DNA from: Meghimatium bilineatum
Taxonomy: Eukaryota; Mollusca; Gastropoda; Stylommatophora; Philomycidae
Direction of reading: 5' to 3'
NCBI GenBank assembly: GCA_034231615.1
Contig: CM067317.1
Span: 1,944,501 to 2,008,500 of the forward strand
Length of the DNA: 64,000 bases
The translations under genes were made by a program, and so were the position numbers. Below are positions 1-52,484 of this stretch, one piece after another (the first letter of the stretch is position 1; each line of letters begins with the position of its first letter). The notes under the pieces are model-generated. The model saw only the letters and a program-made list of their open reading frames with translations. It was not told where the DNA came from and ran no database searches.

Positions 1-909
1 CTGAGGCCTAGGACCAGTACGTTCCCGGCCAACACGAAGTGCTACCCTATACTTTATCATCACGAAGGCCAATTATACTGAAACACAGAAGTTTCAAAGA
101 GAAAATCGGTGTGTGTTATATTTATATATTTTTCAAAGTTAGGACACGAGCTGTCGTGAATTTCAGTTACCTGTTCGTTAAGTAATCAGTGCGTGTGCAA
201 TTAGTAAAATTTCAAGGAACAGACGGACATGGATGTGAGTATGTCTTGCTAACTATTTATCACAGAACAAAGAGAAGTGAACAATTGTTATATAATTTAC
301 GAACAATCTATTACTATGTGGAGACTATAGTTAAATTCATAAATTCCCCGACAGGACCAGGACGACTGAGAGAAATGAACATTTGTTTTGGTGTTGAACA
401 TTAATAGTGAAGTTAACAATTAATTAGATATTGAATTTATAAATACCATCCCACAAAAATTCATATAATGTCATTCCACAGAGATATATTGAGTTTATAA
501 ATGTCATTCCACGGAGATATATTGAGTTTATAAATGTCATTCCACAGAGAGATATTGAGATCATATAATGTCATTCCACAGAGATATATTGAGTTTATAA
601 ATGTCATTCCACAGAGATATATTGAGTTTGTAAATGTCATTCCACAGAGATATATTGAGTTCATAAATGTCATGCCACAGAGATATATTGAGTTTATAAA
701 TGTCATTCCACAGAGGAGATAAGTAGCTACTTGACGTATTGGTTTCATGCATTTATATATATATGTCAATTTGATAATATAACTCAAGTAGGATTGTTGT
801 TCACACAATTAGCGGTAGGCAGATTAAGGCTATCCAGGGTTAATAGTAGAGTTGAGAGAACGTCACAGAGCTAGTAACGAGAAACTCACAAAAGAGGTGT
901 TGGTAGAAA
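1..909 (+). mobile_element. 5' leader of the gag-bearing LTR retrotransposon (upstream LTR outside window)
   Basis: This stretch precedes the gag-like start codon and contains no long open frame of its own. It does not resemble the end of the LTR seen at 2970-4185, so the 5' LTR and primer-binding site are presumably upstream of the window. Its second half holds a 33-bp minisatellite. The assignment rests on position only: an LTR element with its 3' LTR at 2970-4185 should have its leader here. Confidence 0.5.
455..719. repeat. 33-bp minisatellite in the retrotransposon leader
   Basis: About eight copies of a 33-bp unit containing CATTCCACAGAGATATATTG, separated by TTTATAAATGT-like spacers. 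Unit 3 or 4 is slightly rearranged (a GATCATATAATG variant). Short frames on both strands through it are by-products of the 33-bp period (11 codons). Confidence 0.9.
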
Positions 910-2697
910 ATGGAACAAAAGGCCTTAGCCCCAGTAGCCGACAATGAAGAAGTAGAGAAGTCTGAGCTGCGCGAGTTAATACAAGCCTTAAGATGGCAAG
1001 GCTCGGCTACCAGTATTACGCCGTTCTCAGGGAACGAAGCGCACTTCAAGAGCTGGATAGCAGAGATAGAAAAGTGCGCGTTGTTGACAAGAGCCAGCGA
1101 ATATAACAAGAAATTGTTAGCTCTGCAAGCTAGCAACGGTCTAGTAGCAGAGACGATTAGGCTCAGGATAGAGAGAGTACCAGCAGAATCCTGGAAGGAC
1201 TTCCAAGCGGGATTAGAACGGAGATATGGTGGACTCTCCGGAGCCGAATATGCGCTGGTAATGCTAACAAAGGTTAGACAAAACGTGGCTGAAACAGTGG
1301 AAGCTTTCGGAGACAGACTGTTACGTCTGGCAGAAGAAGCTTTCCCCCAGGAAATTGAGGAAAGAGGTGTAGGGAGAATACTCCTGCACTACTTTGTAGA
1401 AGGGTTGCTGCCAGGAGCGATTAAACGTCACCTCATTGAAACCGATCCCAGCACGCTAGACGATGCTCTCCGTTTAGCACAGACTAAGGAGCGCAATATG
1501 AAGTGGATCGAATTCAGGTTGGGCACGGAGCCCCATGAAAGGGAATCGGATACAGTAGAAAAGACGCTCCCACTAAACCAGGGGGGATTTGACAGATTCC
1601 GTGAAAGGAAACAGGAGTTTCCAGAGAGAGACCGAAGATGCTATAATTGTGGGCAGGTCGGTCACCTCAGGGCAGACTGCAGAAGGGGAGGATGGTATAA
1701 GCACGAATTTCCGCTAGATCAAAAATGTCGAGAAGAGACGAGATTCACCCAGCGATTCCTGGACGTCAGGAAACGACCGTTCCGCTCAGAGATAGGGGCC
1801 TACCAGAGAGTAGCCCAAGATACAGTACCCACAAGAAGAGGACAGGAGGTTGAACGGATAGGAGCAGTGGTCAGGAGGGACCAGAGGGGTCAGGTTATGA
1901 CCATACAGAAAAGGGTAGTTGTAGCCAGGAACGGGCACACGAGAGGAACCAGGACGAACGAAATACCCAGTCGGACGTTTGCGAAACAGAACAGGGGCGA
2001 CAGTAGGGCTAATTTCTCCTCCTCGAGGCGGCGAGAGATAGATAGAGGAAACTGGCGAGTAAATGCCTTAAGAGTCCGCCCGAGCAATAAAGAGAACCCG
2101 GATCGCACAGAGCGACCTTTAGAAATCTTGAAGGAGTTAGAAGTCTGCAAGACAGACAAACGGAAGTCTGACAGTGAGATACAGACAGCAGAGAGGCTAA
2201 CGGCCGTGCTTCAGTCAGAGTTGAGGTCTCTGAGTGAGGTAGCGAGAGAACATTCTGAAGAGATTCAGGAGCCCAGACCAGAGCCCAGGGTTCCGGACGA
2301 GCCAGCCACGGAAGAACACCTGGAAGAGGTGACTTTGGAAAGGCTCGAAGAGAACGAGGAAGACAGCGCATCAGACCACGACACTGATGACGACGAAATC
2401 GCAGCGGATAACTACACTGATACAATCAAGTGCGAGTCACACGATAGCACTGAGACGGAACTGAGGACTCACAGTGAGACAGTTGAAGTGGTGGCACCAC
2501 CTCAGCCTGCGGCAGACAGCACGGAGGACGCACCTTTCCGGAACACTCAGGCCGAGAGTAGACAATGGAACGACGTTGCAGACATCGTTAATACCCAACC
2601 TACGATACAGGCGGTAAGGAGAAAACCGAGGAATGAGGCAGCGTTCAGATTAGCTCGCCAGATCGTTCTAGGTATAGATCATATGAAACAGAACTAA
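910..2697 (+). CDS. Gag-like polyprotein of an LTR retrotransposon, intact, no pol downstream
   Basis: 595 codons, ATG to TAA, uninterrupted in a region where nearly every other TE frame is broken. Residues about 38-205 look like a Ty3/gypsy-type capsid: a FSGNEAHFKSWIAEIE start, then helices ending near the linker. A single CCHC zinc knuckle follows at residues 244-257 (C244, C247, H252, C257), as expected of a nucleocapsid that binds RNA. After the knuckle comes an Arg/Lys-rich stretch (about 258-390) and then an unusually long acidic tail (about 420-560). I see no protease, reverse transcriptase, RNase H or integrase motif; only about 270 bp separate the stop from the 3' LTR. The frame is visibly more GC-rich than its flanks. 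Either a non-autonomous gag-only element or a pol-deleted copy; a domesticated gag is a weaker alternative because the LTR is still recognisable. The Ty3/gypsy assignment is by capsid look only. Confidence 0.85.
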   Translation: MEQKALAPVADNEEVEKSELRELIQALRWQGSATSITPFSGNEAHFKSWIAEIEKCALLTRASEYNKKLLALQASNGLVAETIRLRIERVPAESWKDFQAGLERRYGGLSGAEYALVMLTKVRQNVAETVEAFGDRLLRLAEEAFPQEIEERGVGRILLHYFVEGLLPGAIKRHLIETDPSTLDDALRLAQTKERNMKWIEFRLGTEPHERESDTVEKTLPLNQGGFDRFRERKQEFPERDRRCYNCGQVGHLRADCRRGGWYKHEFPLDQKCREETRFTQRFLDVRKRPFRSEIGAYQRVAQDTVPTRRGQEVERIGAVVRRDQRGQVMTIQKRVVVARNGHTRGTRTNEIPSRTFAKQNRGDSRANFSSSRRREIDRGNWRVNALRVRPSNKENPDRTERPLEILKELEVCKTDKRKSDSEIQTAERLTAVLQSELRSLSEVAREHSEEIQEPRPEPRVPDEPATEEHLEEVTLERLEENEEDSASDHDTDDDEIAADNYTDTIKCESHDSTETELRTHSETVEVVAPPQPAADSTEDAPFRNTQAESRQWNDVADIVNTQPTIQAVRRKPRNEAAFRLARQIVLGIDHMKQN

Positions 2698-35004: not shown

Positions 35005-35351
35005 TTACAGTTCTGTCTTGATTTCCTCCCTCCCTTCCTCCACAATATCATCATCATCATCATCTATATTTTCATCATTATCATCATCCTCATGCAAATT
35101 ATCATCAAATTTATCATCTGCAGTAGCATTATTTTTCTGCGCTTTTTTCCGCCTCTCTTCCTCTATTCTACGTTCCTCCTCCTTTCTTATAACTTCACAA
35201 AGTCCACTACGAATCTGATGGGCAGCCCGAATCCCCGAGTTATATGCACCATGAAGAGTTCCGTGAGACTGAAAGGCTGTGTGCTCACCAGCGAAGTAAA
35301 TGTAGGGGCACACAGGTCTAGTAAAGGTATCCCACAAACCTGGATCACTAC
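35005..35351 (-). CDS. Amine oxidase exon 8 (FAD C-terminal motif, acidic tail, KTEL)
   Basis: Acceptor ATAATCCAG/GTAGTG. Encodes [16 protein letters not shown] and [15 protein letters not shown], then an Arg/Glu/Lys helix of about 20 residues and an Asp/Glu/Asn segment that follows a GAT/GAC trinucleotide run, ending EEIKTEL and TAA. Confidence 0.93.
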
Positions 35352-38300
35352 CTGGATTATTCAGAGGAAAAAACGTGATTAATTAGTCAGCTATGTAAAA
35401 ACATGTGATTAATTAGTCAGCTAGGAAAAAACATGTGATTAATAAGTCAGCTAGGTAAAAACATGTGATTAATTAGTCAGCTAGGTAAAAACATGTGATT
35501 AATTAGTCAGCTAGGTAAAAACATGTGATTAATTAGTCAGCTAGGTAAAAACAATGTGATTAACCTGTAACAACCCTATGTCGACATATGCCACATTGAG
35601 GTAGCCATTTTTTCTCACAGACAACTATCCCCCATGATAATTTCCCATAATGCTTTTGTAATAACTAATTTCTAGAGTGGTCTTCTCTAATTTTTCAGCG
35701 GGAACAATTAGCCCAGTAGTGACTTTTTCAGGTCTTTTCATCCTTGCAAGTCACAGTGTGTAGACCTAAATTCATTATGGAAAATTACGCTATAATGATG
35801 GCATGTTAACTATGTGTTTCTGATGATACTTCAATACTTGTGCGGGATGTTAGTTGTTGTTGTAATAGTCCTTGTCTCAATTGGTCCGTACTCAGTGACT
35901 TGAGTACACAAGTTGAATGTCATGACAAGATCACGTCTTTTTTTGGGGATGTGGTCGGTCAAGTATGGAAAACCTGTTTACTTGTGTTGCAAGGCGATTC
36001 GGTGCCCCTAGAACAGACCTGGTACAATTACCGTCAGCTTTAAGAACATTATTCACAGCAGACAGACAATGCACAACATTGAGACAGCTCAGACAATACA
36101 CAACATTATGAATAGCAGACATACAATGCAACTCACCAACTTTGGGATATGTACTAGCCCCCAAAGACAAGGGATCTGTAACCCACTTGGAGTGCTGAAA
36201 TCTCACAACTTGTCCACCTTGTTTGACTAGATCTTCACCAAACATTTCATTAAGTACATCTAACACTGGGGATAGATGGAACAAACAATCTATCCTGAAA
36301 ACAGATGTCTGTAGAAGGTTTGGATTAACTACCATACCAAGTTTCACGTTATTCATAATAATAACTCATAAATATGAATTAGTTCAATGCCTATTTAGCC
36401 AAAATAAAGTGTTACAAAATAAACAATGTCTGCAATTAGCCAAAATAAAATGTTACAAAATAAACAATGTCTGCAATTAGCCAAAATAAAGTGTTACAAA
36501 ATAAACAATGTCAGTAATTAGCCAAAATAAAGTGTTACAAAATAAACAATGTCTGCAATTAGCCAAAATAAAATGTTACAAAATAAACAATGTCTGCAAT
36601 TAGCCAAAATAAAGTGTTACAATATAAACAATGTCTGCAATTAGCCAAAATAAAGTGTTACAAAATAAACAATGTCTGCAATTAGCCAAAATAAAGTGTT
36701 ACAAAATAAACCATGTCAGTAATTAGCCAAAAATAAACAGCGTTGGTAATTAGCCAAAATAAACAGTGTCTGTAATTAGCCAAAATAAAGTGTCAGTAAT
36801 TAGCCACAATAACCGGTGTCAGTAATTAGCTAAAATAAACAGTGTCAGTAATTTACCACCATCATCATCATCATTAAATCAATAACTCTTCAGGATCATG
36901 GGGGTGCCATACTGGAAATATCAACATAAAATCTCTGCCATGCCTGGATGTTGTCAGTTCCCTGTTTGAGTGTGGAGAATCTTAATCCCATCCAGTCTAG
37001 CCAATAGTAAAACATCATGAGAGAATCCATGGATACAGCTTTGTGGATAAAACAATGAGAGAATCCATGGATACAGCTTTGTGGATAAAACAATGAGAGA
37101 ATCCATGGATACAGCTTTGTGGATAAAACAATGAGAGAATCCATGGATACAGCTTTGTGGATAAAACAATGAGAGAATCCATGGATACAGCTTTGTGGGT
37201 AAAAACAATGAGAGAATCCATGGATACAGCTTTGTGGATAAAACAATGAGAGAATCCATGGATACAGCTTTGTGGATAAAACAATGAGAGAATCCATGGA
37301 TACAGCTTTGTGGATAAAACAATGAGAGAATCCATGGATACAGCTTTGTGGATAAAACAATGAGAGAATCCATGGATACAGCTTTGTGGATAAAACAATG
37401 AGAGAATCCATGGATACAGCTTTGTGGATAAAACAATGAGAGAATCCATGGATACAGCTTTGTGGATAAAACAATGAGAGAATCCATGGATACAGCTTTG
37501 TGGATAAAACAATGAGAGAATCCATGGATACAGCTTTGTGGATAAAACAATGAGAGAATCCATGGATACAGCTTTGTGGATAAAACAATGAGAGAATCCA
37601 TGGATACAGCTTTGTGGATAAAACAATGAGCCAGCAGCGATTAACCGTTTTATTTACCAACAATAAATAAAAATTACAAAAAATAAACAATAGACAGATG
37701 TCAACAACAAACATATTGTAAATGTTTGTTTGTTTGAGAACCCCAGGAATTGTGAGCGATTAGCTCTCATTTTCTATGTGCAATGAGGTAGTTTTTCCGA
37801 GCTTTCTTTCATACCCAGGAGACTTCAGCTTTCGGCTTAGTGCAACTAGTGCAATGCTTATTGAAGGAGCCTTCTACATGGAGAGAGTCTTCTATAATTG
37901 TATAGATGACATGCTACAAAGTTTCCATAAGAGAGCCTCCATATAACAGCACGTCATCTACTAAGATTTTTTGGTGGTTTGTCTAGTTGGGCCATTTGTG
38001 AGACACACAGACAGAACCAAATGCAAATGTTGTCAATAAATGACCAGTACAATACATAGACATGACAAAACTCACCCAAGCTTTTAGCTTCTTCAAGACT
38101 CAGATTCTCAAATTTTGCAGCAGCCTGTCCAAACAGTAAACCAGTCAGCACTGGATGACCGATAAGACTATTTACATTGACCCAGGTTTGCAGATTTCCC
38201 CTGTCAGCATCTGTTTTGACTGCCCTCGTAAACACACCATACTCAGCTGACCAGAATGCATGCTCAAATTCGATGATAACCTTATCTCCTGGAGATGTGG

Positions 38301-41300
38301 CTGTCCAAAGATGGAGAAAAATTATAATTAGATTTATCTGTCAATAGATGGAGACACTTATCATTATGAGATTCTTTAAAAAAGGTCCCAGTTGGACCAT
38401 AATATAGGAAAAGTCTGCGTCGTTATTTTTATTCCTTGTTATTTATTCCTTGTTTGATATTTGTTCGTTGATTAAGTAGCATTATTACTACATCATAGAA
38501 TTTATCCATGGTCACTCCAATAAATACCTTGCAACTGCATTAATTAGGACTACATTCATTATGTTTTTTTACTATTGTTGGACTTTCGGTTGGTCACTAT
38601 TTACATACTTGGAAATGCGTGCCAAAAATAGTCAAGGCAACTTCAAGTATATACAGTGACCAATCGACAGCACAATAATGGTATCCATCATGTCGCGTGA
38701 CAATTCTAGATAAGTCTTGCTGGGAATGTTCATAATTTATCTCATCACTTCCAGAGACAACTTCATAAGAAACAACTAAGGAGGTTGAGTGTTATGTGGG
38801 CTACCCCAACCCAATCATCTCTGCTGTGGTAAAGATGGTTGATGGCCCATGGTCGCTTGCTCGAAGAGACCAACTATTTTATCCATTGTATGCCTTAAGA
38901 TTGCAAGACAAGTCACTGCAAGATACTCTCTGGGGTAGAAGATGGTCACCGCTAGGTACCGTCTGGGGTAGAAGCCAGTCCAGATCATGGCACTGCAACC
39001 TACATCCACATTGAGTTGATTGGTTTCTGATCCAGCGGTTTGTGGGCTCATATCTTTTGGCTCAAATAATATTGCAGTGCTGAAGAGTGTGGGTTTTCTA
39101 ACCACCACGGGCCAGAAAATAACTATCACACCACCAAGTAGGTAGTCTTCTACGCACTGCTTAGAACCACTGCAGCCAAGATAGCATTCATTAGGCTCAT
39201 TTCCCGCTACCAATTGCCTATTGGTTATGCCGAACTTCTCTATGGCTCCAGGCATGCAACCAAATGTTCACGGCAAAAGGCTTGTCATGTTCTGAGTCAC
39301 TGTGCCATTATGATGGGCCTCAGCCATAGAAAAACAGTCTAGATAGACTTCTCCTCCCAGTGCTTCGCAGTACATGGCTGGCTCCCTCCCAACCACACAG
39401 AGTGCCTGCATATACGCAAAAAAGCATGAAAGACACAAAAAAGCATGAAAAGAACAATTGTATAGATTGTGTGGGTATGAAATCTCCAGAAGAAACCTCA
39501 ATATACAGGCAGGTCATCTACTAAGGTTTTCTGTTGTATGGGCAATGTGTCTAATGGGTTATTGGTGAAACCCACAGACATTCCATATGGGTGGTTTGTC
39601 TCTGACTTCAGCACCTGTGTTTGCTTGGGCAGGACTGTGGTCCTGCTCGATATTGGGTTGACCTGACCAATGATATTGGGTTGACCTGACCAATGATATT
39701 GGCTGACCTGACCAATGATATTGGCTGACCTGACCAATGATACTGGGTTGATCTGACCAATGATATTGGCTGACCTGACCAATGATATTGGCTGACCTGA
39801 CCAATGATATTGGGTTGACCTGACTAATGATATTGGGTTGACCTGACCAATGATATTGGGTTGACCTGAGCCTCTGTTGGCTGGACTAAGCCCGATCTCT
39901 ACTTCAAGGAGTTGGCCTCGATGGGGATCATTATTAATCATTATCATCATCATTGTCCTACCTTTCTAGATATTGCCCGCTAACAGAGACGTCTGCTGAC
40001 CACACAAATGTTGCTTACTTATTTCATGTATTGCAAGCTGGTACTCCTTGGGTAGGTCCGGCTCAAACAACAACTCTCCAGATGCAATCACAGATAATGG
40101 TACAGCGACAACAACTATGTCAGCAGCCACTTGTAGGCCATCACGGAAACGAACCAACACCTTGCGCCTTCCTTTGTCTACTTTGATTTGTCTGACAGCT
40201 TTATTGAGGTTCAAATGAAGTGGAGGTTCTTCTGTAGATCCACTAACAAGTCTGAAAGAAAAGACAAGCAAAACATTGCTAGCCACATGTGACATGAAAC
40301 ACAGCAAACATTGCTAGCCACATGTGACATGAAACACAGCAAACATTGCTAGCCACATGTGACATGAAACACAGCAAACATTGCTAGCCACATGTGACAT
40401 GAAACACAGCAAACATTGCTAGCCACATGTGACATGAAACACAGCAAACATTGCTAGCCACATGTGACATGAAACACAGCAAACATTGCTAGCCACATGT
40501 GACATGAAACACAGCAAACATTGCTAGCCACATGTGACATGAAACACAGCAAACATTGCTAGCCACATGTGACATGAAACACAGCAAACATTGCTAGCCA
40601 CATGTGACATGAAACACAGCAAACATTGCTAGCCACATGTGACATGAAACACAGCAAACATTGTTAGCCACATGTGACATGAAACACAGCAAACATTGCT
40701 AGCCACATGTGACATGAAACACAGCAAACATTGCTAGCCACATGTGACATGAAACACAGCAAACATTCACAGTTCTACATTATAAATTACACCTAGTCAA
40801 CATCAAAATTGTACCAGTAATGAAAAAAGTTTATCTGAACTCATTTTGGGGTGTGCTTCTTCAAGAAGAAGAGGTGTGCTAAAAACAAAAATGATATTAG
40901 TAGTAGTCCAGCTAAAAATAACGTATATCTGACACCCGCTATTAATGTTTTTACTGCTGGTTTTTCTGCATGTGTTTGCTTTTTGGCATGTTTTTATTTT
41001 TGAGTTATTGATTTCAAATTCGGAGACAAAAGAGATAAATGGATGCTGGATATAATTTGGAGGTGTTATTTGCTTGTGTGTGTCAGTGTTATGTAGATAT
41101 AATTTGGAGGTGTTATTTGCTTGTGTGTGTCAGTGTTATGTAGATATAATTTGGAGGTGTTATTTGCTTGTGTGTGTCAGTGTTATGTTGTGTACAACCA
41201 ACATCAAGAATGTGGACAGACACACACAAAGAACTTACAGCATCAAGGTCATGCGTAGGCCTAGCTGAAGAAAACATAGCCCCCTCAAATTCCTTGTCGT

Positions 41301-44300
41301 AAATGACTTCAATTACATCAGTATTAAATATTTTTAACCCTCTCTCTCAAACACCATACGTTGATCTATAGTAACTTAAACACTAAAGCTTTAAAATTCA
41401 TCCTTTTCTGAATCATAATCTGTGAATCAAGATAAGAGTTGGGCAGTACACAAATGTTGCACATCTGAAACTGTATTTGGCTGGCAAAAGGCAGGCTATG
41501 CCATTTGTAGTTTCAATGATTTGGAGAGAGCACACTGATCATATCAACAGCTGTTACTTTTGCATAATGCCACCAATTGGAAAAGGAATATTAAAGGAGA
41601 AAAAAATGGACTCTGCAATATCCAAGCTTCCCCTCTGTCATATGTCCTACCAGCCAGTCCTTCTTCTTCTTCAGCATTCATTCTCAAACTCCCTCTGGAT
41701 CTCTCTTGTAGAAGGACATTGGTCCTGTTAGATTTCCTGAAGAATGTAGTTCATAGAATAGAACAATTCAAGTTAATAAATATAACCATAAAACTTCACT
41801 TGCCTGTCTATGAGCTCTCCCATTCCATCTAAAAGAAGTTTATCGTATCCAACATCCAGATTTTCAGCTTTGTAATTACGGCTTGAGTAGTTGTCCAGAA
41901 TGTACGAAGGCAAACATCTCACTAGATGAGCTGCAGCACTACAACAAGAATACATGAAATCAACAATGTGCATCAATCCAACAACTGAATACATGAAATC
42001 AACAATGTGCATCAATCCAACAACTGAATACATGAAATCAACAATGTGCATCAATCCAACAACTGAATACATGAAATCAACAATGTGCATCAATCCAACA
42101 ACTGAATACATGAAATCAACAATGTGCATCAATCCAACAACTGAATACATATTATTCCTCTTCTGCGTTTGTTCTCAAATCCCTGCTGATTAGCAGGATG
42201 CAGTGTGAAGAATGAAATACGTTGTGTCATGATTTATAGTGCAACTGTGATGTCTGACACATCTGACTTCAGCATGGTTTCTGGGTCACATAGTCCAGCA
42301 GCTTAATACATAATCTACTCTCTGTGTATTGTTTCAACAGCTAAATACATAATCTACTCTCTGTGTAAGCTCGTACAATAGTTGAATATAAAATCTCTGT
42401 CTATTTATTCAACATCTAAATATGTTGTATACATTTGTCTAAGATCTGACAACTGAACACACAATCTACACTCTGTGCCTATTTATCAAAAACCTGAACA
42501 CACAATCTACACTCCGTGCCTATTTATCCAAAAACTGAACACACAATCTACACTCCGTGCCTATTTATCCAACAGCTTAACACACAATCTACACTAATTA
42601 GATGCCTATTATGAAATGCATGGCACATAATCTCCAACTTCAGTTCCAAACCTGATTAGTAGCTTCCTAGGTCCATGTTGCTATTCCTTAAGGCCCCCCC
42701 CCCAATAAGGCATCATCGATGCACTGGAGTAATCTCTCATCTTCCTACGTGGACAATAATTCAGAAAACATCCATAGAAGATATGACATACATACGTGAA
42801 TCTAGTCATCATGATTGTCCTACCTACATCCATAGAAGATATGACATACATACATGAATCTAGTCATCATGATTGTCCTACCTACATCCATAGAAGATAT
42901 GACATACATACGTGAATCTAGTCATCATGATTGTCCTACCAACATCCATAGAAGATATGACATACATACGTGAATCTAGTCATCATGATTGTCCTACCAA
43001 CATCCATAGAAGATATGACATACATACGTGAATCTAGTCACCATGATTGTCCTACCTACATCCATAGAAGATATGACATACATACGTGAATCTAGTCATC
43101 ATGATTGTCCTACCAACATCCATAGATATGACATACATATGTGAATCTAGTCATCATGATTGTCCTACCAACATCCATAGATATGACATACATATGTGAA
43201 TCTAGTCATCATGATTGTCCTACCAACATCCATATAGATATGACATACATACGTGAATCTAGTCATCATGATTGTCCTACCAACATCCATAGATATGACA
43301 TACATATGTGAATCTAGTCATCATGATTGTCCTACCAACATCCATAGAAGATATGACATACATACGTGAATCTAGTCATCATGATTGTCCTACCAACATC
43401 CATAGATATGACATACATATGTGAATCTAGTCATCATGATTGTCCTACCAACATCCATATAGATATGACATACATACGTGAATCTAGTCATCATGATTGT
43501 CCTACCAACATCCATAGATATGACATACATACGTGGATCTAGTCATCATGATTGTCCTACCAACATCCATAGAAGATATGACATACATACATGAATCTAG
43601 TCATCATGATTGTCCTACCAACATCCATATAGATATGACATACATACATGAATCTAGTCATCATGATTGTCCTACCAACATCCATAGAAGATATGACATA
43701 CATACATGAATCTAGTCATCATGATTGTCCTACCAACATCCATATAGATATGACATACATATGTGAATCTAGTCATCATGATTGTCCTACCAACATCCAT
43801 ATAGATATGACATACATATGTGAATCTAGTCATCATGATTGTCCTACCAACATCCATATAGATATGACATACATATGTGAATCTAGTCATGATGATTGTC
43901 CTACCAACATCCATATAGATATGACATACATATGTGAATCTAGTCATCATGATTGTCCTACCTACATCCATAGATATGACATACATATGTGAATCTAGTC
44001 ATCATTATTGTCCTATCTACATCTATTTCACTGAGAAATAAAGTCATGCATCCATTCTTCGCAGAGTCTCTGAACTAACAGACATGTTCTCACTTCAACA
44101 AACTGCTGATGTTATTACATGTACAGCACAAGGACAAACCTATCGTGATCCTCTTCCTGTGATATAACTTTGTCTATGGCATCCTTCATTGATACCTCAA
44201 TCTTTTCATATCTTGATTCATTCACTGCTTGCCCTAAAATCTGTCAAACCAAACATAACTGCTTCAATAACTGAGAAATTGAATTCATTCACTGCTTGCC

Positions 44301-47300
44301 CTAAAATCTGTCAAACCAAACATAACTGCTTCAATAACTGAGAAATTGAATTCATTCACTGCTTGCCCTAAAATCTGTCAAACCAAACATAACTGCTTCA
44401 ATAACTGAGAAATTGAATTCATTCACTGCTTGCCCTAAAATCTGTCAAACCAAACATAACTGCTTCAATAACTGAGAAATTGAATTCAATATCTTCATAA
44501 TTCACAACAGATCAGACACATTGTTTGTAAGTTGAATCTTTTCATGATGCAGCTTGCCATGCACAATCAAATACCACAGTACACATATCTGGAATCCCAA
44601 AATACATGTATACTAACATAAGAATCTCACAGTACACAGATACTAACATAAGAATCTCACAGTACACAGATACTAACATCTTACAGTACACAGATACTAA
44701 CATATGAATCTCCCAGTACACAGATACTAACATATGAATCTCACAGTACACAGATACTAACATAAGAATCTCACAGTACACAGATACTAACATCTTACAG
44801 TACACAGATACTAACATGAATCTCACAGTACACAGATACTAACATCTTACAGTACACAGATACTGACACATGAATCTCACAGTACATATTTAAATTCATC
44901 ATCAAGTGCCGTCTCTGCAACGAGGGTTGGCTGCAACAAATCTCCAACATCCCTTGTCTCTTGTCTTGGTGGTGTGCTCTGCTAGACTGTAACCTGTCCA
45001 TCGTGTGATGTTATTCTCCCACGTGTATCTCTGCCTACCTCTTGCTCGCTTTCCTTTGACTTTACCCTCAAGTAAGGTCTTCAATAAGGTGTCATGTCTT
45101 TTAATGTGTCCAAAATATTTTATTTGTCTGATCTTTATTTCTCTTAGTAATTCTTTCTTCATATTAAGCGTCTTTAGCAACTCTTTATTTGTTTTCTCAT
45201 CTTTCAATGATGTTCTCCCTATTCTTCTATATACCCACATCTCAAAGGCATCAATTCTGTCTTCTAATTGTTTATTTAGTGTCCATGTTTCTGAGCCATA
45301 TTTAAATTAAACGTGTTAAAACCTGCATTTACAAATCAAATAATAAAACACAGAGATGGACATCTTTATCTTCTTCTGCACTTGTTCTCAAACTCCTGCA
45401 GATTAGCAGAATGCAGTCCAAGGTATAGAATGCATTGTGTCATTGCTTACAGATTTGCTGCGATATCTATGCTTCTTGGCCTGACACATCTGACTTCAGC
45501 ATTTGAGACATCTATGCTGCATAATAGATAAAAACTTACATACCTTCGCAGCTTGACGTGTGATTTCCGAGAGATCATCTCCGCTATAAGCGATTTTCTC
45601 CCATGGTACGATAAACTGAAGCTTCTGTACTGAAGCAACTTTCAGATCAAATTTTTCTGCCAACTCAATCAGAGGATTCTCCTTGGATATAATACTCAGT
45701 GCTGAACCACCTAGATCTACTTCTGCACCTGAAACCAGTCACATAACCTAGCATCAATCATGTAATCTGGCATCAATCATATAATCTGGTATAAATCATG
45801 TAATCTGGCATCAATAATATAATCTGGTATAAATCATGTAATCTGGCATTAATCATATAATGTGGTATCAATCGTATAATCTGATATCAATCATGTAATC
45901 TGGCATCAATCATGTAATCTGATATCAATCGTATAATCTGGTATCAATCATATAATCTGATATCAATCGTATAATCTGATATCAATCGTATAATCTGGTA
46001 TCAATCATATAATCTGGTATAAATCATATAAATCTGATATAAATCTTATAAATGATATAATCTGATATCAAGGATATAATCGGACACTAGCAAATGTACA
46101 CATATTTTGTATTTTTTACTTAAGCAAGTGTTGAAAACTCCTGAGTTCAAGTCTGTAGCAGAAACTCACCAGTCAATACAGTTGTAAAAGTAGGTTGGGA
46201 AGGTAAATATAGCAAGGAACATTACCCCTCTGCTTCAAAGAAAGGTGAAGTGTCCAACATATAATGACAAGATAAGGCATATATAACTATTAGTTGACTT
46301 CCTTGATTCATATAAATAAAGTCATGTTTATAGAAGTGACAAAAATTCAGATATAAGCTTGTTCTGTTTTGTAATTCTTTCGTAAGTCTGTCGAGTTTCT
46401 CTTCCTCTGTTGTTTCTCAGGGCAAGTGTGCTCAATATTTTATATTCTGTGCATTCTTAAAGAATATGCTCTGCTGTCTGAGGTACAATCAGCAGAATAG
46501 TGAACAATGATATAGTGACAACAGAGATATGTTACTCCATCATGACCAGCTCCTTGAAGTGGAGACGAGGCTTAGTCCAGCCTACAGAGGCTAGCTAGAA
46601 ACTAAGATTGGTCAGGCCATTCCCTTAAATTGAGGCCAACTCCTTCAAGTGAAGATAAGGCGTAGTCCAGCTAATAGAGGCTAGAAACTAAAATTAAAGC
46701 AGGGCCACAGTTCTGTCCAAGCAAGCACTGTTGCTGAAGTCGGAGATACCAGGCCAAGAGGCGCACCAGCAACCATGGTATCATGAAAAATGACTAGATA
46801 AGATAACTTCATAACAAAAAACTTACTGTGTAGATATGTTCAACTGTACACAAGAAGAATGTTAAGAACATCAAGGACAAATAAAAAGCATAATGAAGAC
46901 ATCATGAAAGAAGTGAATTCTACTTACCTGCATCAGACAGAGAAAGTTCAAATTTATGACATATCATGTGATGAGAAAAGGAAAGATGGAACACATTGTG
47001 ACAACAGGCAAGTTGAAGAGTAAGAGTGATAGTGGAAGACCAAGAGAAATGCTTGACAACCTAGCATTGTGGCATGGGAGTACATCAGTATCAGAAATGA
47101 TTGACAGCACACAAAACAGGAAGCTGTGAAAAGACATGCCATCCAATGTCACATGTCATGAACCATAAGAAGAGGCCTGAGGTGCCTGTCCACGTGGCTG
47201 TGTTGCCAACTTGAATTGTGTAAACATGTGGCTGCAGAGTCAGCTGTGTTCTTTTCTGAGGCGTAGAACAACAACTTGTTCTGGTTTATTTATAGTTTGT

Positions 47301-50300
47301 TAGTCACCAAGGGGGCAGCGTAGCGCAGTGGTTAGTACACTGGCTTCACATATGAGTGGTTCTGGGTTCATTCCCCAGTTGAGGGAGGAAAAATTCTCAG
47401 ACACAACACCTTCCGGGTTGACCCAACCTTAATTGGTAAATACTGCGAGGGAGAGAAGATGGCTACCGCCCTCAAATAGCAGATACACTGAAAAGTGATA
47501 TAGCTAATATCTCACACCACTAAGGCATTAATAAAATGCTATGTATTAACTTTACTTTTTGTTTTAGAGCTGGCTTGCCAGTTGCTTTGACCATCTGTTT
47601 CTTTTGATGGTACATTATTGGCACATCTGTTTGATCATCATCAGATCCCTACTTAACCAGACCATCTGCTTTCTCATTTACAGGTATTCCACAATGTGAA
47701 GGTATCCAATACAAATATAATCTGCGCAGACTGCTTTGCTCGGTCAGAAGTATTTACAGGTCTGGTCATTTTCTGGTCTGGAGCACTGGTCTTGAACCTG
47801 TCAAAAATACTACAGGCAGAGGGTCAAGATTTTTTCTCAGCATTTTTTTACTGTCCACCTTGATTGCCAGGATTTCTGCATTGTAATTATGACATAATTT
47901 CCCTGTTTGTATTTTTATTGCATCCCGAACATTGTTTGGGTAATGTTCCTGCTTCTTCAATTTTTGCTGCATTCTCTGCTGGCCCATCTGTATAGTTTCT
48001 GATGCATATGTCTTGTGGATAATCATCCAGTAGACAGAGTAACATGAATAGTAACTAGATTTCCAGTAGGATGTAATCCAGAGAATGGAAATGTGGCGTG
48101 TCATCGTTTTATTTGCACAAATATCCCACCACATCATCTTTGATGGATCATGAATGAACTTATTGCTATTGGGGGGGGGGGGGGGTGTAGGGGCAAGAAA
48201 GTACAAAATAGTAAAACTTTGACCTACGATTGCATGTTGCAGCAGACAACTAAGGAAAATTCGAACATGTGGTTGGCTACCCCATGCAGTAATATTCATG
48301 ACAAAAAATATGTTGAAATCGGTTGTGTCAGGTCGATTGCACAAATGTTGCTGTCAAGCTGTAAACCATGACACAGCACATAGACTTATATTTACAGAAC
48401 AGAATTTTCATGACACAAAAGAACCAGATAAGACCTACAAAGCCATCACAATATATTCTAGAACAAGGGTGGGCAAACTTTTTGTGCAAAGGGCTACATT
48501 GAAAATTGTAAAGCTATTGGAGGGCCACATATAATATTATGTATGTTTTTGTTTAAAATTCTTGGTAAGTAATCAATTAAATATTTTTATTGTAAAGAAA
48601 GGTAGTTTTACATAATGTAGATAACTTCTGAAATAAATGACATTTCTAATAGACTTACACTATAACAGTATATTTTCTAATATGGATAAAAGGTTTTGCA
48701 AATATTTTAACAATATTTGAAAAATATTATGTTGCATACAGTTACAATATGGGTTCATATCAATAGTTTTAATGAAGATTTTAAAAAACACCATAATCAT
48801 AGTCACAACTTTATTGATATTATTTATTTCTAATGAGATGTATGTAATTGCTTGTAAGATTTTATAATTCCTTTGAAATCTGGAACAGGTTTACTTGTAG
48901 AAATTTGCATGACTGCATTTAAGTTGCAATCAGATAATAAAGACCTATTCTTAGATTTGTTGATTTTTAAGCAAGAAAATGCCTGTTCACAAATATATGT
49001 AGATCTAAATAATGACAAAAATATAGCTGCAAAGTTTTTTAAGTTTCGGAATGATTGTTCAGGCAAATAACCATAGAAATCCAACAAACATTCAGACTTA
49101 AATCTCTCCTTCAGGTAATGATTGGCTTGTAATTTAAGCAACTACAACTGTATGTGCTCTGGGGCTTTATCAGCTTCTGCACTGAGAGGAGAACTGATAA
49201 CATTGAAGTGCTGCTCCAAGTTCTTGAAATCTTCTTCCAAATTCTTCAACCAATACATCTACCTCAGCTTTGAATTTTTTACTCATTTCATCAGAAATAG
49301 TTTCTTGTTTCAGCAAAGGGAAGTGACAAAACATGTTTATACTTGCTTGTCTGGAAAACAGTGAGAGTTTAAAAAACAGTGAGCAAACAAACCATTGCCC
49401 TGAAGTTTAACATTCAGTTCATTTAACTTTTCCATTATTTCAATGGCAAATATAAAGTCAAGCTTCCACATTCTTGCATCAACAATGTTAGCAATGAAGT
49501 CACATTCTATGCCCTTTATCTCTAGAAACATTACTATTTCTTCTTTAACATGCCATACTCTCCTTAAAACCTTTCCGAGACTCAACTATCGAACTGTACT
49601 GTGGTACAGGACATCAGAATGTTCAGTTTCTAGATCGTCTAGTAATGCTCTAAACTGCCTGTGATTGAGTCATCTTGATCTGATGAGGCTTATGACATTA
49701 ACAACTCGGTCAATAACATGCTTAATTTTTAAAACAGATTTGTACAAACTTTCCTGATGAATCACACAGTGAAGTGGTAATATTATGTGGTCAGGATATT
49801 CTGACTTAATCCTATCATTGATCAACTTTATCAGTCCTATATTTTTTCCAGTAAAAGCACAAGCATCATCAGTTGTAATACTGGCCATCTTGTTCCACAT
49901 TAACCTAGCTCTTTCAATACAGCTACTAACAGCATTGAATATATCGAGGCCAGTGGTAGTGTCTTTGATCGACTCAACACTCAGTAACTTTTTAAAGAGT
50001 TTAAAAGAATTGTTTGTTCCACGTATAAAAACTAATAATTGAGCAGTATCCTGTACATCAGTACTCTCGTCCAATGCAAGAGAGTACCACAAAAAATGCT
50101 TACTTGCATCTTGAAGTTGAAGGGTCAAATCTTCACTTATCTTTTCAACACGTGTGACCATAGTTCTGGATAATGTAATACTGTCAAAGTTGTTGTTGTG
50201 TTCTGGACAAAGAATGTTTGTTGCATCTAGTAAACATTCCTTAATAAATTCACCATCAGAAAATGGCTTGTTGTATTTCACAATTTTGTGTGACAACACC

Positions 50301-51150
50301 AAACTGGCCTCTGTTGTGGCATCTTGAATTGAAGACTATTTTGTAAACACAGTTTGTTGTTTCTCCAGACTTTTTATCAACTCCATGCATTTTCTTTTCC
50401 TTTCTTCAGATGTTAGATTGTGTCCAAAATTGGGATGTTTTGTCTGGTAATGACTTTTTAAGTTATATTCTTTAAAAACAGCCACTGATTCGTGACACAG
50501 CAAGCAAACAGATTTGTTGCCAACTTGCATAAAACAATATTTGGTAATCCATTCGTCTTTGAAAACCCGACAATCGTCTTCAATCTTACGTTTTTTTGAT
50601 GCACTCATTATAATAAAAATATCTTAGAATGTTGCAAAATTAATTAAAAACAAATGTGCTTCCGGCAGCGCGAATTTAATTATTTAGATTTAGAAAACTC
50701 AGTTTTAATATAAATACGGAAATTTATGAATGGAAACTACAAACGTGATGGTTATTAAAACACACAGGGAATTCCCCAGGCAATGCGCAGCTTAAATGAT
50801 TGCAAATCGAGTATTTGCGCATTCCATTCGTAGGATATTGGGGGGGGGGGTTATTTATGACAATACATTATTGTTGTAACGATGTATTATTAATTATAAC
50901 AGCTTTTAGCGATATTCTATTTTGTATGAAACATCTTTTTAATATAAACTAAACACACATCCCGACATAATGTTTAAAAGTTAAAACAATTAATTATAAT
51001 TTGAAAGGCAATTTTCAACCTTTATAAAATTATATCGTCCGAGTACTTAAAACCATTGAGAAACATTCAGCCAATCAAATTACGTCAATTCTAGTATAGT
51101 AAATTACTCAATATTGAACACTCATATTAAACGTAGTAAAATTTCATTGA

Positions 51151-51218
<68 letters not shown>

Positions 51219-52484
51219 ATATTAACATTTAAATGATGTCAAATTGGGAAAAAATATTGTATATTTAATATATAAGAAAGTCGAATTAATATTCCAATGG
51301 ATTTCTGCGTAATATTAATGGGAAAAAAATCATTTGTGACGATCGTTCGTTTATTTAAAAATGTGTTTGAGGGCAGCAAAATATCCAATGGCGAGCCGCA
51401 TGCAGCCCGCGGTTTGCCCACCCCTGTTCTAGAACATCACCAATATATTCTTGAACATCATCCATATATTCTTGAACATCACCAATATATTCTTGAACAT
51501 CACCAATATATTCTAGAACATCATCCATATATTCTAGAACATCACCAATATATTCTAGAACATCATCAATATATTCTAGAACATCATCCATATATTCTAG
51601 AACATCATCCATATATTCTAGAACATCACCAATATATTCTAGAACATCATCAATATATTCTAGAACATCATCCATATATTCTAGAACATCACCAATATAT
51701 TCTAGAACATCACCAATATATTCTAGAACATCACCAATATATTCTTGAACATCACCAATATATTCTTGAACATCACCAATATATTCTAGAACATCATCCA
51801 TATATTCTAGAACATCACCAATATATTCTAGAACATCATCAATATATTCTAGAACATCATCCATATATTCTAGAACATCATCCATATATTCTAGAACATC
51901 ACCAATATATTCTAGAACATCATCAATATATTCTAGAACATCATCCATATATTCTAGAACATCACCAATATATTCTAGAACATCACCAATATATTCTAGA
52001 ACATCATCAATATATCCTAGAACATCATCATTATATTCTAGAACATCACCAATATATTCTAGAACATCACCAATATATTCTAGAACAATCATTATGAAAA
52101 TAATGACAGTTTTAGTCTAAGTGATGTTTTTATAGAAAATATTCTAACTAAAGTCTAAATGTATCAGTAGAAGAGGTTACCTCTTGCTTTCATATTTGTC
52201 AATTTATCTGTCCACACACGACCTCCATAACGGTCCTTTCTGGCTTCATAGACTTTGACTGTAAAGTTCTGCTTATCCGAGGATAAGCTTCGAGCTGCAG
52301 CAAGACCTGCGATGCCAGCACCAATGACAAGAACTTCTTTAGGGAGATATGGCTCATCTACAATGTCATGTTCTTTCGTATTTGTAGACGATGACTTTTC
52401 TCCATTCGTAAACAGATTTAATGTGACTGTTAACAGGACCACAATATGAAATATATAAGGTAGTGTTGTTCCTGTATGACCCAT
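35005..52484 (-). CDS. Flavin amine oxidase, eight exons, signal peptide and C-terminal KTEL
   Basis: Exons (minus strand, 5' to 3'): 52484-52181, 45728-45540, 44233-44140, 41938-41804, 40251-40019, 38300-38076, 36265-36137, 35351-35005. Total 1656 nt, 551 codons plus TAA; every junction keeps the frame. Residues 8-28 are a signal peptide core. Residues 51-60 hold [10 protein letters not shown] (FAD dinucleotide fold), E80 the ribose-binding acid, 87-89 [11 protein letters not shown] starts at 102. [11 protein letters not shown] (325-335) places K325 where the flavin-contacting lysine of LSD1/polyamine oxidases lies. W421-P425 and GASTYPKVG (429-437) replace the usual GSYSY block, and IYFAGEHT (454-461) with a [11 protein letters not shown] block closes the FAD site. 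After about residue 480 comes an EEERR helix, an Asp/Glu tail and KTEL. Members of this superfamily oxidise amines, making H2O2; the substrate cannot be read from sequence. The tail predicts ER retention. Relation to molluscan L-amino-acid oxidases or LSD1-like PAOs is not resolved. Confidence 0.93.
35372..35570. repeat. 30-bp minisatellite in intron 7, abutting exon 8
   Basis: About six units containing ACATGTGATTAATTAGTCAG then CTAGGTAAAA. Begins about 20 bp from the exon 8 acceptor, just beyond its polypyrimidine tract. Confidence 0.95.
36137..36265 (-). CDS. Amine oxidase exon 7
   Basis: Acceptor TATCCCCAG/TGTTAG, reading [33 protein letters not shown] and YPKV; the W-x2-DP and GASTY positions match W-x2-DP-x2-GSYSY of the family. 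Donor GTTG/GTGAGT, phase 1. Confidence 0.92.
36370..36855. repeat. 41-bp minisatellite in intron 6
   Basis: Units contain CAATTAGCCAAAATAAAGTG then TTACAAAATAAACAATGTCTG. The last third consists of shortened units that keep only AATTAGCCAAAATAAACAGT. Confidence 0.95.
37014..37630. repeat. 38-bp minisatellite in intron 6, about 16 units
   Basis: Units contain GAGAGAATCCATGGATACAG then CTTTGTGGATAAAACAAT, nearly identical throughout; one unit near 37198 reads GGGTAAAAAC. Because 38 is not divisible by three yet no frame has a stop, three overlapping minus frames of 203-272 codons arise; none is a gene. Confidence 0.95.
37885..38015. repeat. Dispersed ~120-bp repeat, copy 2 (intron 6)
   Basis: CGTCATCTACTAAGATTTTT, GGTTTGTCTAGTTGGGCCAT, GTGAGACACACAGACA: a diverged copy of the 7795-7935 repeat. 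Confidence 0.6.
38076..38300 (-). CDS. Amine oxidase exon 6 (substrate domain and flavin lysine)
   Basis: Acceptor TTGGACAG/CCACA. Encodes [40 protein letters not shown] and [19 protein letters not shown], matching the family order KVxLxF-FW, W-N and G-A-A. Donor TTGG/GTGAGT, phase 1. Confidence 0.93.
38578..38672. mobile_element. Foldback MITE, copy 1 (intron 5, next to exon 6)
   Basis: GGTTGGTCACTATTTACATA and its near-complement TATATACAGTGACCAATC flank a core containing GCGTGCCAAAAATAGTCAAG and a CTTGGA/TTCAAG arm pair, so the whole ~95-bp unit can fold on itself. The core matches a second copy at 59139. Confidence 0.75.
38800..39300. other. Intron 5 segment with a short internal duplication; no gene
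   Basis: CTCTGGGGTAGAAGATGGTC and CGTCTGGGGTAGAAGCCAG lie close together (about 38930-38985). The 146-codon minus frame (39255-38815) and the frame ahead of it read as an unknown ancient element (with a stop between them); no domain recognised, and they lie inside an intron. Confidence 0.45.
39475..39600. repeat. Dispersed ~120-bp repeat, copy 3 (intron 5)
   Basis: GTCATCTACTAAGGTTTTCT, GTGTCTAATGGGTTATTGGT, GAAACCCACAGACATTC: close to the copy at 7795-7935. Confidence 0.65.
39600..39960 (-). mobile_element. LINE-5'-end-like repeat in intron 5 with a ~22-bp expansion
   Basis: Minus-strand copy of the element at 4600/46545/61470: the plus strand shows GGGCAGGACTGTGGTCCTGC and, at the other end, CTGTTGGCTGGACTAAGCCC, GAGTTGGCCTCGATGGGG. 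Between them GACCTGACCAATGATATTGG is repeated about ten times (39655-39868), with and without GTT. In the intact element this slot holds one GACCAGTC-type segment. Confidence 0.75.
40019..40251 (-). CDS. Amine oxidase exon 5
   Basis: Acceptor CTTTCAG/ACTTG. Encodes [34 protein letters not shown] and [14 protein letters not shown], the FAD-domain strands of amine oxidases. Donor AAATAA/GTAAGC, phase 1. Confidence 0.92.
40267..40768. repeat. 35-bp minisatellite in intron 4, abutting exon 5
   Basis: About 14-15 nearly identical units with ACATTGCTAGCCACATGTGA then CATGAAACACAGCAA. Begins within 20 bp of the exon 5 acceptor. Confidence 0.95.
41050..41190. repeat. 47-bp tandem triplication in intron 4
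   Basis: Three identical copies with ATATAATTTGGAGGTGTTAT, then TTGCTTGTGTGTGTCAGTGT. Confidence 0.95.
41655..41765 (-). mobile_element. SINE (family 1) tail fragment in intron 4
   Basis: TTCTTCTTCTTCAGCATTCA, TTCTCAAACTCCCTCTGGAT, CTCTTGTAGAAGGACATTGG, GATTTCCTGAAGAATGTAGT: the 3' half of a minus-strand copy. Confidence 0.75.
41804..41938 (-). CDS. Amine oxidase exon 4, with a GC donor
   Basis: Acceptor TTGTAG/TGCTGC; reads [20 protein letters not shown] and [12 protein letters not shown]. The exon must end at GACAG/GCAAGT for exon 5 to be in frame. The only GT nearby (CAA/GTGAAG) would put exon 5 into an immediate stop. Confidence 0.9.
41948..42148. repeat. 39-bp minisatellite in intron 3, abutting exon 4
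   Basis: Five identical units (GAATACATGAAATCAACAAT then GTGCATCAATCCAACAACT), starting 10 bp from the exon 4 acceptor. Period 13 codons, so both strands stay open; not a gene. Confidence 0.95.
42152..42300 (-). mobile_element. SINE (family 2) in intron 3
   Basis: TTCCTCTTCTGCGTTTGTTC, GATTAGCAGGATGCAGTGTG, GTGTCATGATTTATAGTGCA, CACATCTGACTTCAGCATGG. Confidence 0.8.
42300..42595. repeat. ~41-bp degenerate minisatellite in intron 3
   Basis: Units with ACACACAATCTACACTCCGT then GCCTATTTATCCAA; first units are diverged (CTAAATACATAATCTACTCT). Confidence 0.8.
42772..44030. repeat. 55/58-bp minisatellite in intron 3, about 22 units
   Basis: Units contain GACATACATACGTGAATCTA, GTCATCATGATTGTCCTACC and AACATCCATAGAAGATAT, with the AGA triplet before AGATAT present or absent (58 or 55 bp, some with TAT). 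ACGTG, ATGTG and ACATG variants are intermixed. Frames of about 105-114 codons occur on both strands; not genes. Confidence 0.95.
44140..44233 (-). CDS. Amine oxidase exon 3
   Basis: Acceptor GATTTTAG/GGCAAG, in the frame [20 protein letters not shown] with donor GATAG/GTTTG, phase 2. The acceptor and the first 18 exon bases also occur three times upstream in a 67-bp array (44234-44486). Confidence 0.88.
44234..44486. repeat. 67-bp array carrying copies of the exon 3 splice acceptor
   Basis: Units contain GAATTCATTCACTGCTTGCC, CTAAAATCTGTCAAACC and ATAACTGCTTCAATAACTGA. On the minus strand each has TTTTAG/GGCAAGCAGTGAAT, the exact exon 3 acceptor plus 18 exon bases. AG positions: 44235-44234 (used), then 44302, 44369 and 44436 at 67-bp steps. 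Confidence 0.92.
44595..44885. repeat. 24/30-bp minisatellite in intron 2
   Basis: Alternating units ACAGATACTAACATAAGAAT-CTCACAGTAC and a shortened ACATCTTACAGTAC form, plus ATGAATC variants; about 11 units. Confidence 0.9.
44895..45300 (-). pseudogene. LINE C-terminal remnant in intron 2
   Basis: Minus frame 45240-44902: [75 protein letters not shown] and a stop: the usual end of endonuclease-reverse transcriptases. Open across 112 codons, so a fairly recent insertion, but 5' truncated. Confidence 0.85.
45365..45512 (-). mobile_element. SINE (family 2) in intron 2, next to exon 2
   Basis: TTCTTCTGCACTTGTTCTCA, GATTAGCAGAATGCAGTCC, GTGTCATTGCTTACAGATTT, GGCCTGACACATCTGACTTC. Its head ends some 25 bp from the exon 2 donor. 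Confidence 0.8.
45540..45728 (-). CDS. Amine oxidase exon 2
   Basis: Acceptor GGTTTCAG/GTGCAG; the split glycine codon gives [23 protein letters not shown] follows. Two donors are possible: G/GTATGT at 45544 or GGTAT/GTAAGT at 45540. Only the second keeps frame with exon 3. Confidence 0.92.
45740..46080. repeat. 15/30-bp degenerate array in intron 1, near exon 2
   Basis: ATCAATCATGTAATCTGGT and ATATAATCTGATATC variants, about 22 units of 15 bp. Starts near the exon 2 acceptor. Confidence 0.9.
46545..46800 (+). mobile_element. LINE-5'-end-like repeat (intron 1), with a duplicated segment
   Basis: GAGACGAGGCTTAGTCCAGC, GAGGCTAGCTAGAAACTAAG, GGTCAGGCCATTCCC, then a second AGTCCAGC...GGCTAGAAACTAA unit, GCAGGGCCACAGTTCTGTCC, GCTGAAGTCGGAGATACCAG, GGCGCACC. 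One ~85-bp segment is present twice. Confidence 0.7.
46930..47160 (+). pseudogene. LINE C-terminal remnant (family of 14085)
   Basis: Plus strand reads [20 protein letters not shown] then [20 protein letters not shown] and a [12 protein letters not shown] tail; the order HVMRKG, IVTTGK and a terminal basic block match 14220-14430. Confidence 0.7.
47305..47550 (+). mobile_element. tRNA-derived SINE, copy 1 (intron 1)
   Basis: GCGTAGCGCAGTGGTTAGTA fits an RNA polymerase III A box (TRGCNNAGYGG) and GGTTCTGGGTTCATTCC a B box, about 30 bp apart as in a tRNA. A longer non-tRNA body follows (CACCTTCCGGGTTGACCC, TATCTCACACCACTAAGGCA). A minus-strand relative is at 54890-55143. Confidence 0.85.
48050..48150 (-). 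mobile_element. SINE (family 1) head fragment
   Basis: CTAGATTTCCAGTAGGATGT, AATCCAGAGAATGGAAATGT, GTTTTATTTGCACAAATATC, CACCACATCATCTTTGAT; the GAA tail is missing. Confidence 0.7.
48240..48395 (+). mobile_element. SINE (family 2) fragment
   Basis: AACTAAGGAAAATTCGAACA, GGTTGGCTACCCCATGCAGT, GTTGAAATCGGTTGTGTCAG, AAGCTGTAAACCATGACACA: middle part of a plus-strand family-2 copy. Confidence 0.65.
48464..51426 (-). mobile_element. hAT DNA transposon, complete ends, inactive transposase
   Basis: The left end CAAGGGTGGGCAAACT and the right end (reverse strand) CAGGGGTGGGCAAACC form terminal inverted repeats with 14 of 16 matches. They are flanked by perfect 8-bp direct repeats TTCTAGAA at 48456-48463 and 51427-51434, the duplication length typical of hAT elements. 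The 2963-bp body has one minus-strand transposase-like region (50608-48830) and AT-rich flanks, including a (TA)n run at 51154-51215. Lies wholly in intron 1, on the same strand as the host gene. Confidence 0.95.
48830..50608 (-). pseudogene. hAT transposase, BED finger to C-terminal dimerisation block, several stops
   Basis: Starts at 50608. [20 protein letters not shown] plus QTKH is a BED-type finger (C-x2-C...H-x4-H). After a TAG at 50338-50336 the same frame continues ([74 protein letters not shown]). A TGA near 49670 and a TAG near 49586 (after [20 protein letters not shown]) interrupt; the next part ends at 49337, where a frameshift follows. The last piece, 49141-48830, keeps [20 protein letters not shown], a hAT C-terminal motif. 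It resembles the GTF2IRD2/ZBED-like hAT group. Three in-frame stops and at least two frame changes: inactive. Confidence 0.92.
51435..52088. repeat. 21-bp minisatellite in intron 1, about 31 units
   Basis: Units AACATCACCAATATATTCT followed by AG or TG, with CATC/CATCA and CCA/TCA variants. The period is seven codons, giving 245-266 codon frames on both strands (for example EHHQYIL repeats); not a gene. Lies directly against the right end of the hAT element; a single unit is left on its other side. Confidence 0.97.
52181..52484 (-). CDS. Amine oxidase exon 1 (start, signal peptide, FAD motif)
   Basis: Starts at the ATG (52484-52482) and is followed by a hydrophobic segment ([18 protein letters not shown]), then [17 protein letters not shown] and [16 protein letters not shown]. 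Donor GCAAGAG/GTAACC, phase 1. The ATG is chosen because it gives an N-terminal hydrophobic core; an untranslated upstream exon is possible. Confidence 0.93.

Follow-up and report, generated by a model that had tools for sequence, protein, structure and literature searches.

A candidate ER-lumen flavin amine oxidase of the LSD1/polyamine-oxidase branch in the mollusc Meghimatium bilineatum

Introduction

To our knowledge, few sources of H2O2 are known in the lumen of the endoplasmic reticulum (ER). An amine oxidase residing there, if real, would connect the breakdown of amines with disulfide formation, and such an enzyme may make H2O2 at the very site of protein folding. The locus described here raises the question of whether a mollusc has such an enzyme. 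The window that we analysed is a 64,000-nucleotide stretch of the Meghimatium bilineatum genome (contig CM067317.1), and an earlier note on this DNA had proposed that one of its genes encodes a flavin amine oxidase retained in the ER lumen. Our own reading, held with moderate confidence and based on the sequence, is that the gene encodes an FAD oxidase that is nearest to the LSD1/polyamine-oxidase branch among solved proteins and that probably resides in the ER lumen of this mollusc.

Structure of the gene

The eight exons that the earlier note had joined in frame are all present on the minus strand, and their spliced translation runs as a single intact frame from the ATG at 52484 to the stop codon at 35005, with 552 codons plus the stop. 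The parts of the gene model are as follows (a slash marks the exon end at each donor site):

52181..52484, minus strand: exon 1, with the start codon, a signal-peptide-like N-terminus (aa 1-28), the FAD-binding motif from aa 55 and GGRV; donor GAG/GTAACC
45544..45728, minus strand: exon 2; donor AAG/GTATGT
44140..44240, minus strand: exon 3; donor TAG/GTTTGT (weak)
41804..41938, minus strand: exon 4; donor CAG/GCAAGT, followed by a GC-AG intron
40019..40251, minus strand: exon 5, which alone matches PF01593 positions 213-279; donor TAA/GTAAGC
38076..38300, minus strand: exon 6, with the flavin-site lysine K326 that aligns with LSD1 K661
36137..36265, minus strand: exon 7; a looser acceptor at 36289 would make it 24 nt longer
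35005..35351, minus strand: exon 8, with the FAGEHT flavin motif, a charged linker, a GAT-rich tail rich in Asp and Glu, the C-terminal KTEL and the stop codon
34001..34954, no strand assigned: 42-bp minisatellite directly behind the gene, repeating AATAAA on the gene's strand

Six of the seven introns are of the GT-AG type, and intron 4 is a GC-AG intron with the consensus donor CAG/GCAAGT. We kept this donor because the alternative after exon 4, CAA/GTGAAG, runs into a stop in exon 5 as worked out by eye. Exon 7 was likewise open to two readings. Its acceptor in our model is ATTGTTTGTTCCATCTATCCCCAG at 36265, behind a proper polypyrimidine tract, while the looser site at 36289 also keeps the frame and gives a protein of 560 residues. 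The longer version was dropped because its 8 extra residues face a gap in LSD1 and because the score against PF01593 rises by 16.3 bits once the 24 nt are trimmed (from 191.1 bits to 207.4 bits for the 552-aa protein). At the two ends of the gene, the start ATG stands in the context AACCATGG with an in-frame stop as the eighth codon upstream, and the stop codon is followed by AATAAA, the first copy of which starts 51 nt further 3', with additional copies in the minisatellite behind the gene.

The C-terminal tail and its KTEL end

The spliced translation ends in EEIKTEL, as had been proposed, so that KTEL stands directly before the stop and the protein has an end of the form K/R/H-x-E-L. In exon 8 a single reading frame stays open from FAGEHT across the tail up to this stop. 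The KTEL end is therefore independent of any guessed splice, since it shares an open exon with a conserved motif and is followed at 51 nt by a poly(A) signal. Asp and Glu make up 21 of the last 40 residues, a highly charged stretch precedes the tail, and the acidic tail resembles those of other residents of the ER lumen. All 14 Asp codons of the tail are GAT, as against 21 of 30 upstream of it, so that the acidity appears to be driven in part by a GAT repeat, and the acidity or the length of the tail may vary. The GAT run does not extend to KTEL itself.

These features bear on the reading that KTEL is an accident or an artefact of modelling and that the protein is merely exported from the cell or targeted to another site, which we regard as very improbable. 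This reading can draw on a gene model that was built from the sequence alone, on a tail that is partly a GAT repeat and on a fair donor-like site inside exon 8 (CTG/GTGAGC at 35288) that reaches 4.6 on a rough donor scale and thereby exceeds five of the seven donors of the model. Splicing at 35288 would, however, cut FAGEHT, in whose open exon KTEL lies. Moreover, an end of the form [KRH][DETSNAGQ]EL is found in only 1 of 1961 stop-terminated frames of at least 20 aa in the window, namely that of the amine oxidase gene, and from the composition of the tail itself such an end is expected in about 0.001 of protein ends. That KTEL co-occurs with a signal-like N-terminus speaks in the same direction.

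The N-terminus and predicted entry into the secretory pathway

The protein begins with a hydrophobic stretch at about aa 10-25, followed by T-N-G/E in agreement with the (-3,-1) rule (the slash here marks the candidate cleavage site), and its first 28 residues contain neither Lys nor Arg. The N-terminus thus fits the shape of a signal peptide, and cleavage is predicted; the signal peptide of the earlier note stands to this extent, as a prediction from hydropathy and the (-3,-1) rule. Across the 552-aa protein, 19-residue windows with a hydropathy of at least 1.6 are confined to two places, the N-terminus and aa 279-306, and the peak is even higher in the second (2.06 vs 1.82 at the N-terminus). 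Residues 279-306 are probably not a membrane segment, because in the alignment they coincide with a strand in the soluble domain of LSD1. N-x-S/T sequons number 5 vs 2.5 expected from composition, a count that gives no real indication of a lumenal location.

KTEL as a retention signal and the KDEL receptor

That KTEL is a known variant of KDEL, as the earlier note had it, is borne out by three proteins outside the flavin amine oxidase family, AGR2, CDNF and CPXV203, in which it is an ER-retention motif and which share this C-terminal tetrapeptide with the molluscan protein. Passages of a review on AGR2 identify KTEL as its ER-retention motif, whose loss raises secretion; they report a reduced affinity of KTEL for the receptor and leakage of AGR2 with this end. 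The same passages cite a contrary study in which AGR2 mutants carrying KDEL and mutants lacking KTEL were equal in secretion (PMC7519367). According to excerpts of the respective papers, CPXV203 depends on its KTEL, which is recognised by the KDEL receptor (PMC3507924), and human CDNF carries the same end (PMC4731063). KTEL is a real and established, but weak, signal for the KDEL receptor.

The receptor side is represented in the genome as well. Two contigs, C23 and C24, carry exons of the KDEL receptor with the stretches SRYLD and ILWTFSIYLE, which we take to contain the receptor residues R47, Y48, D50, W120 and E127; nothing for the E117 position was seen in the frames examined on these contigs. 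The residue numbering is as in the excerpted text of PMC8248988, a study of the K/H/R position of the retention signal, and the term KTEL is absent from that text.

Taken together, the hydrophobic N-terminal signal, the acidic tail, the KTEL end and the KDEL-receptor exons of the genome support well the ER-lumen retention that the earlier note had predicted. The enzyme would accordingly lose its signal peptide by cleavage and would be retrieved from the Golgi by binding of KTEL to the KDEL receptor. In the lumen, its acidic tail may bind Ca2+ loosely, like other ER residents, and oxidation of an amine with O2 would deliver H2O2 to the secretory pathway. Since the receptor reportedly binds KTEL with lower affinity than KDEL, a fraction of the enzyme may evade retrieval and be secreted.

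Enzyme family and active site

The protein scores 207.4 bits for PF01593 (flavin-containing amine oxidoreductase; cut-off 19.8), and the match spans aa 58-484 of its 552 residues and nearly the whole profile (positions 1-442 of 443). Both the Rossmann FAD motif at aa 55 and the flavin-site lysine K326 are present. At E <= 0.001, the 560-aa model matches 22 NCBIfam families, all of them below the families' own cut-offs.

Among the best 60 of 95 matches of the 435-aa domain to solved proteins in the PDB, LSD1 ranks first (8e-30), followed by LSD2 (3.3e-26), PAOX and SMOX (2.2e-21), maize polyamine oxidase (PAO; 6e-21), MAO B (2e-15) and snake L-amino acid oxidase (LAAO; 4e-14), which is the best match of its kind. 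Among solved proteins, the nearest branch is that of LSD1, followed by the polyamine oxidases; a closest relation to LAAO was not found among these 60 matches, given 4e-14 for LAAO vs 8e-30 for LSD1.

Over the C-terminal half, the 560-aa model and human LSD1 share 76 identities in 227 aligned residues. With LSD1 residue numbers obtained through the chain offset in the alignment, and with the roles of these positions as we presume them, K661 and W751 are conserved as K326 and W422, while Y761 corresponds to Ser432 and T810 to Thr469 (552-aa numbering). The flavin-site lysine and FAGEHT are common to LSD1 and the molluscan protein. LSD1 is nuclear, whereas the molluscan protein has the signal-like N-terminus and KTEL. 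It also differs from LSD1 and LSD2 in the Ser at Y761, in lacking a SWIRM domain (absent among the 7 Pfam families matched by the 552-aa protein at E <= 0.001) and in lacking an insertion of the size of the LSD1 tower, with 57 residues between the two aligned blocks vs 159 in LSD1.

The polyamine oxidases PAOX, SMOX and maize PAO, the last of which is secreted, are of the same family and size, but they match less well, and we know of no polyamine oxidase with a KDEL-like end. The positions of LSD1 Y761 and T810 are presumably those of the aromatic cage of polyamine oxidases, and in maize PAO and MAO the flavin is flanked by two aromatic residues. These aromatics are not kept in the molluscan protein, which has Ser432 and Thr469 at the positions assigned via LSD1 numbering.

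The missing aromatics speak for an ER-lumen flavoprotein that is no usual amine oxidase and that might instead act as a dehydrogenase or a scaffold, or be a degenerate enzyme; we consider this reading improbable. The FAD motif and the flavin-site lysine are kept in a complete domain, and a Thr at position 810 is found in LSD1 itself. A parallel for such a protein would be ERFAD, which in passages of a review from 2025 on redox enzymes in the ER is described as a flavoprotein of the ER lumen without the cysteines that serve catalysis in its cytosolic homologue (PMC12781119). ERFAD thus shares the location proposed for the molluscan protein but is a homologue of glutathione reductase (PMC12781119). 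On balance, the molluscan protein is probably an active FAD enzyme. Since the position of LSD1 Y761 is taken by Ser, no substrate can be named for it, polyamines and amino acids included, and the supply of oxidative folding by polyamine or amino-acid oxidation, put forward in the earlier note, is at this stage a proposal.

Copies in the genome and scans for relatives elsewhere

Exon matches to PF01593 numbered 19 among 40 scored candidates in the genome, 3 of them within the gene studied. The 560-aa protein itself hit 9 places, namely its own 8 exons and one further locus on contig C11 with 31% identity (4.2e-7), so that by the search made, in which the best candidates were scored, the gene is single-copy. 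The C11 locus (C11:25016518-25017309) carries the C-terminal half of a flavin amine oxidase (PF01593 positions 189-442) in one open frame and looks polyamine-oxidase-like by eye.

A FAGEHT-like motif was seen in three of eight paralogue loci, which by eye are LSD1-like (C14), MAO-like (C4) and PAO-like (C1); the other five showed nothing. None of the frames of the C14, C4, C1 and C11 paralogues has a KDEL-like end, a weak control in that the C4 and C1 frames may outrun the exon and that no motif appeared at the five other loci. Scans for orthologues used a 499-aa query, the 560-aa model minus its tail, and confirmed no relatives among 18 pattern matches in viral contigs and none among 79 in contigs of prokaryotic genomes.

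Precedents and possible functions

The apoptosis-inducing L-amino acid oxidase (AIP) of parasite-infected mackerel, a flavin amine oxidase that produces H2O2 and ends in KDEL, is the one precedent that we know of for an ER-retained enzyme of this kind. AIP thus resembles the molluscan protein as a flavin amine oxidase with an ER-retention end and in H2O2 production, proposed in the molluscan case, but it is a vertebrate enzyme of the LAAO branch, compared here through snake LAAO (4e-14 to the molluscan protein, among the best 60 of 95 matches). The earlier note had called an ER-lumen form unusual, which is fair, but "unprecedented" would not be, given AIP. The gene is a good candidate for an ER-retained flavin amine oxidase that differs from this precedent by its branch, LSD1/PAO and not LAAO.

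In the open-access literature, outside which most subscription journals lie, we recognised no paper describing an ER-retained flavin amine oxidase, the LSD1/PAO branch included, which is weak evidence of absence. In the excerpted text of PMC3141003, polyamine oxidase and KDEL are mentioned apart, KDEL in the reference list only, and the terms amine oxidase, amino acid oxidase and polyamine are absent from the excerpted text of the ER redox review cited above (PMC12781119).

In a different use of the same signals, the enzyme would be stored in the ER but work outside the cell, with a weak KTEL permitting release on demand of a secreted H2O2 defence oxidase like fish AIP or molluscan LAAOs. We consider this rather unlikely because, among the best 60 of 95 solved matches, LSD1 and PAO are closer to the sequence than LAAO is, and because an acidic tail together with K-x-E-L is equipment typical of ER residents that secreted oxidases do not need. 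In its favour are the reduced receptor affinity of KTEL and the leakage of AGR2 with this end (PMC7519367), as well as the use of LAAOs in defence by molluscs and some fish, with the induction of AIP and its location in capsules around the parasite described in passages of PMC6149928. In addition, a sea anemone polyamine oxidase is tabulated as "Sec", which we take to mean secreted, in the excerpted text of PMC3141003.

Returning to retention in the ER lumen, a more specific and quite doubtful version of our preferred reading is that this molluscan LSD1-branch oxidase, its pocket being wide and free of a cage and its acidic tail resembling that of calreticulin, might act on secretory proteins during their folding and oxidise side chains of lysine or methyl-lysine, or some other bulky amine. 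The H2O2 formed would then provide the ER with oxidising power independent of Ero1.

Surroundings of the gene

Numerous minisatellites, their repeat units measuring roughly 20-130 bp, occur in the window between 461 and 53898, and a considerable share of them sits within introns of the amine oxidase gene; Tandem Repeats Finder gave 52 rows with a score of at least 150, counting overlapping rows. Two further features were recognised by eye:

48830..50623, minus strand: pieces of a transposase-like gene (hAT/ZBED-like) in intron 1, with a zinc-finger-like N-terminus at 50336..50623 and further frames down to 48830
907..2697, plus strand: 596-aa open frame that contains a CCHC-like knuckle and resembles a retroelement gag

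Elsewhere in the genome, exon matches to the haemocyanin domain (PF14830) total 50. This domain is a marker of molluscs and agrees with a probable molluscan origin; its absence from 14 control genomes carries little weight, as these are bacterial and archaeal. The matches form two large clusters at C15:48688708-49237648 and C22:44152637-44272087, and some of these 50 have stops within the matched stretch.
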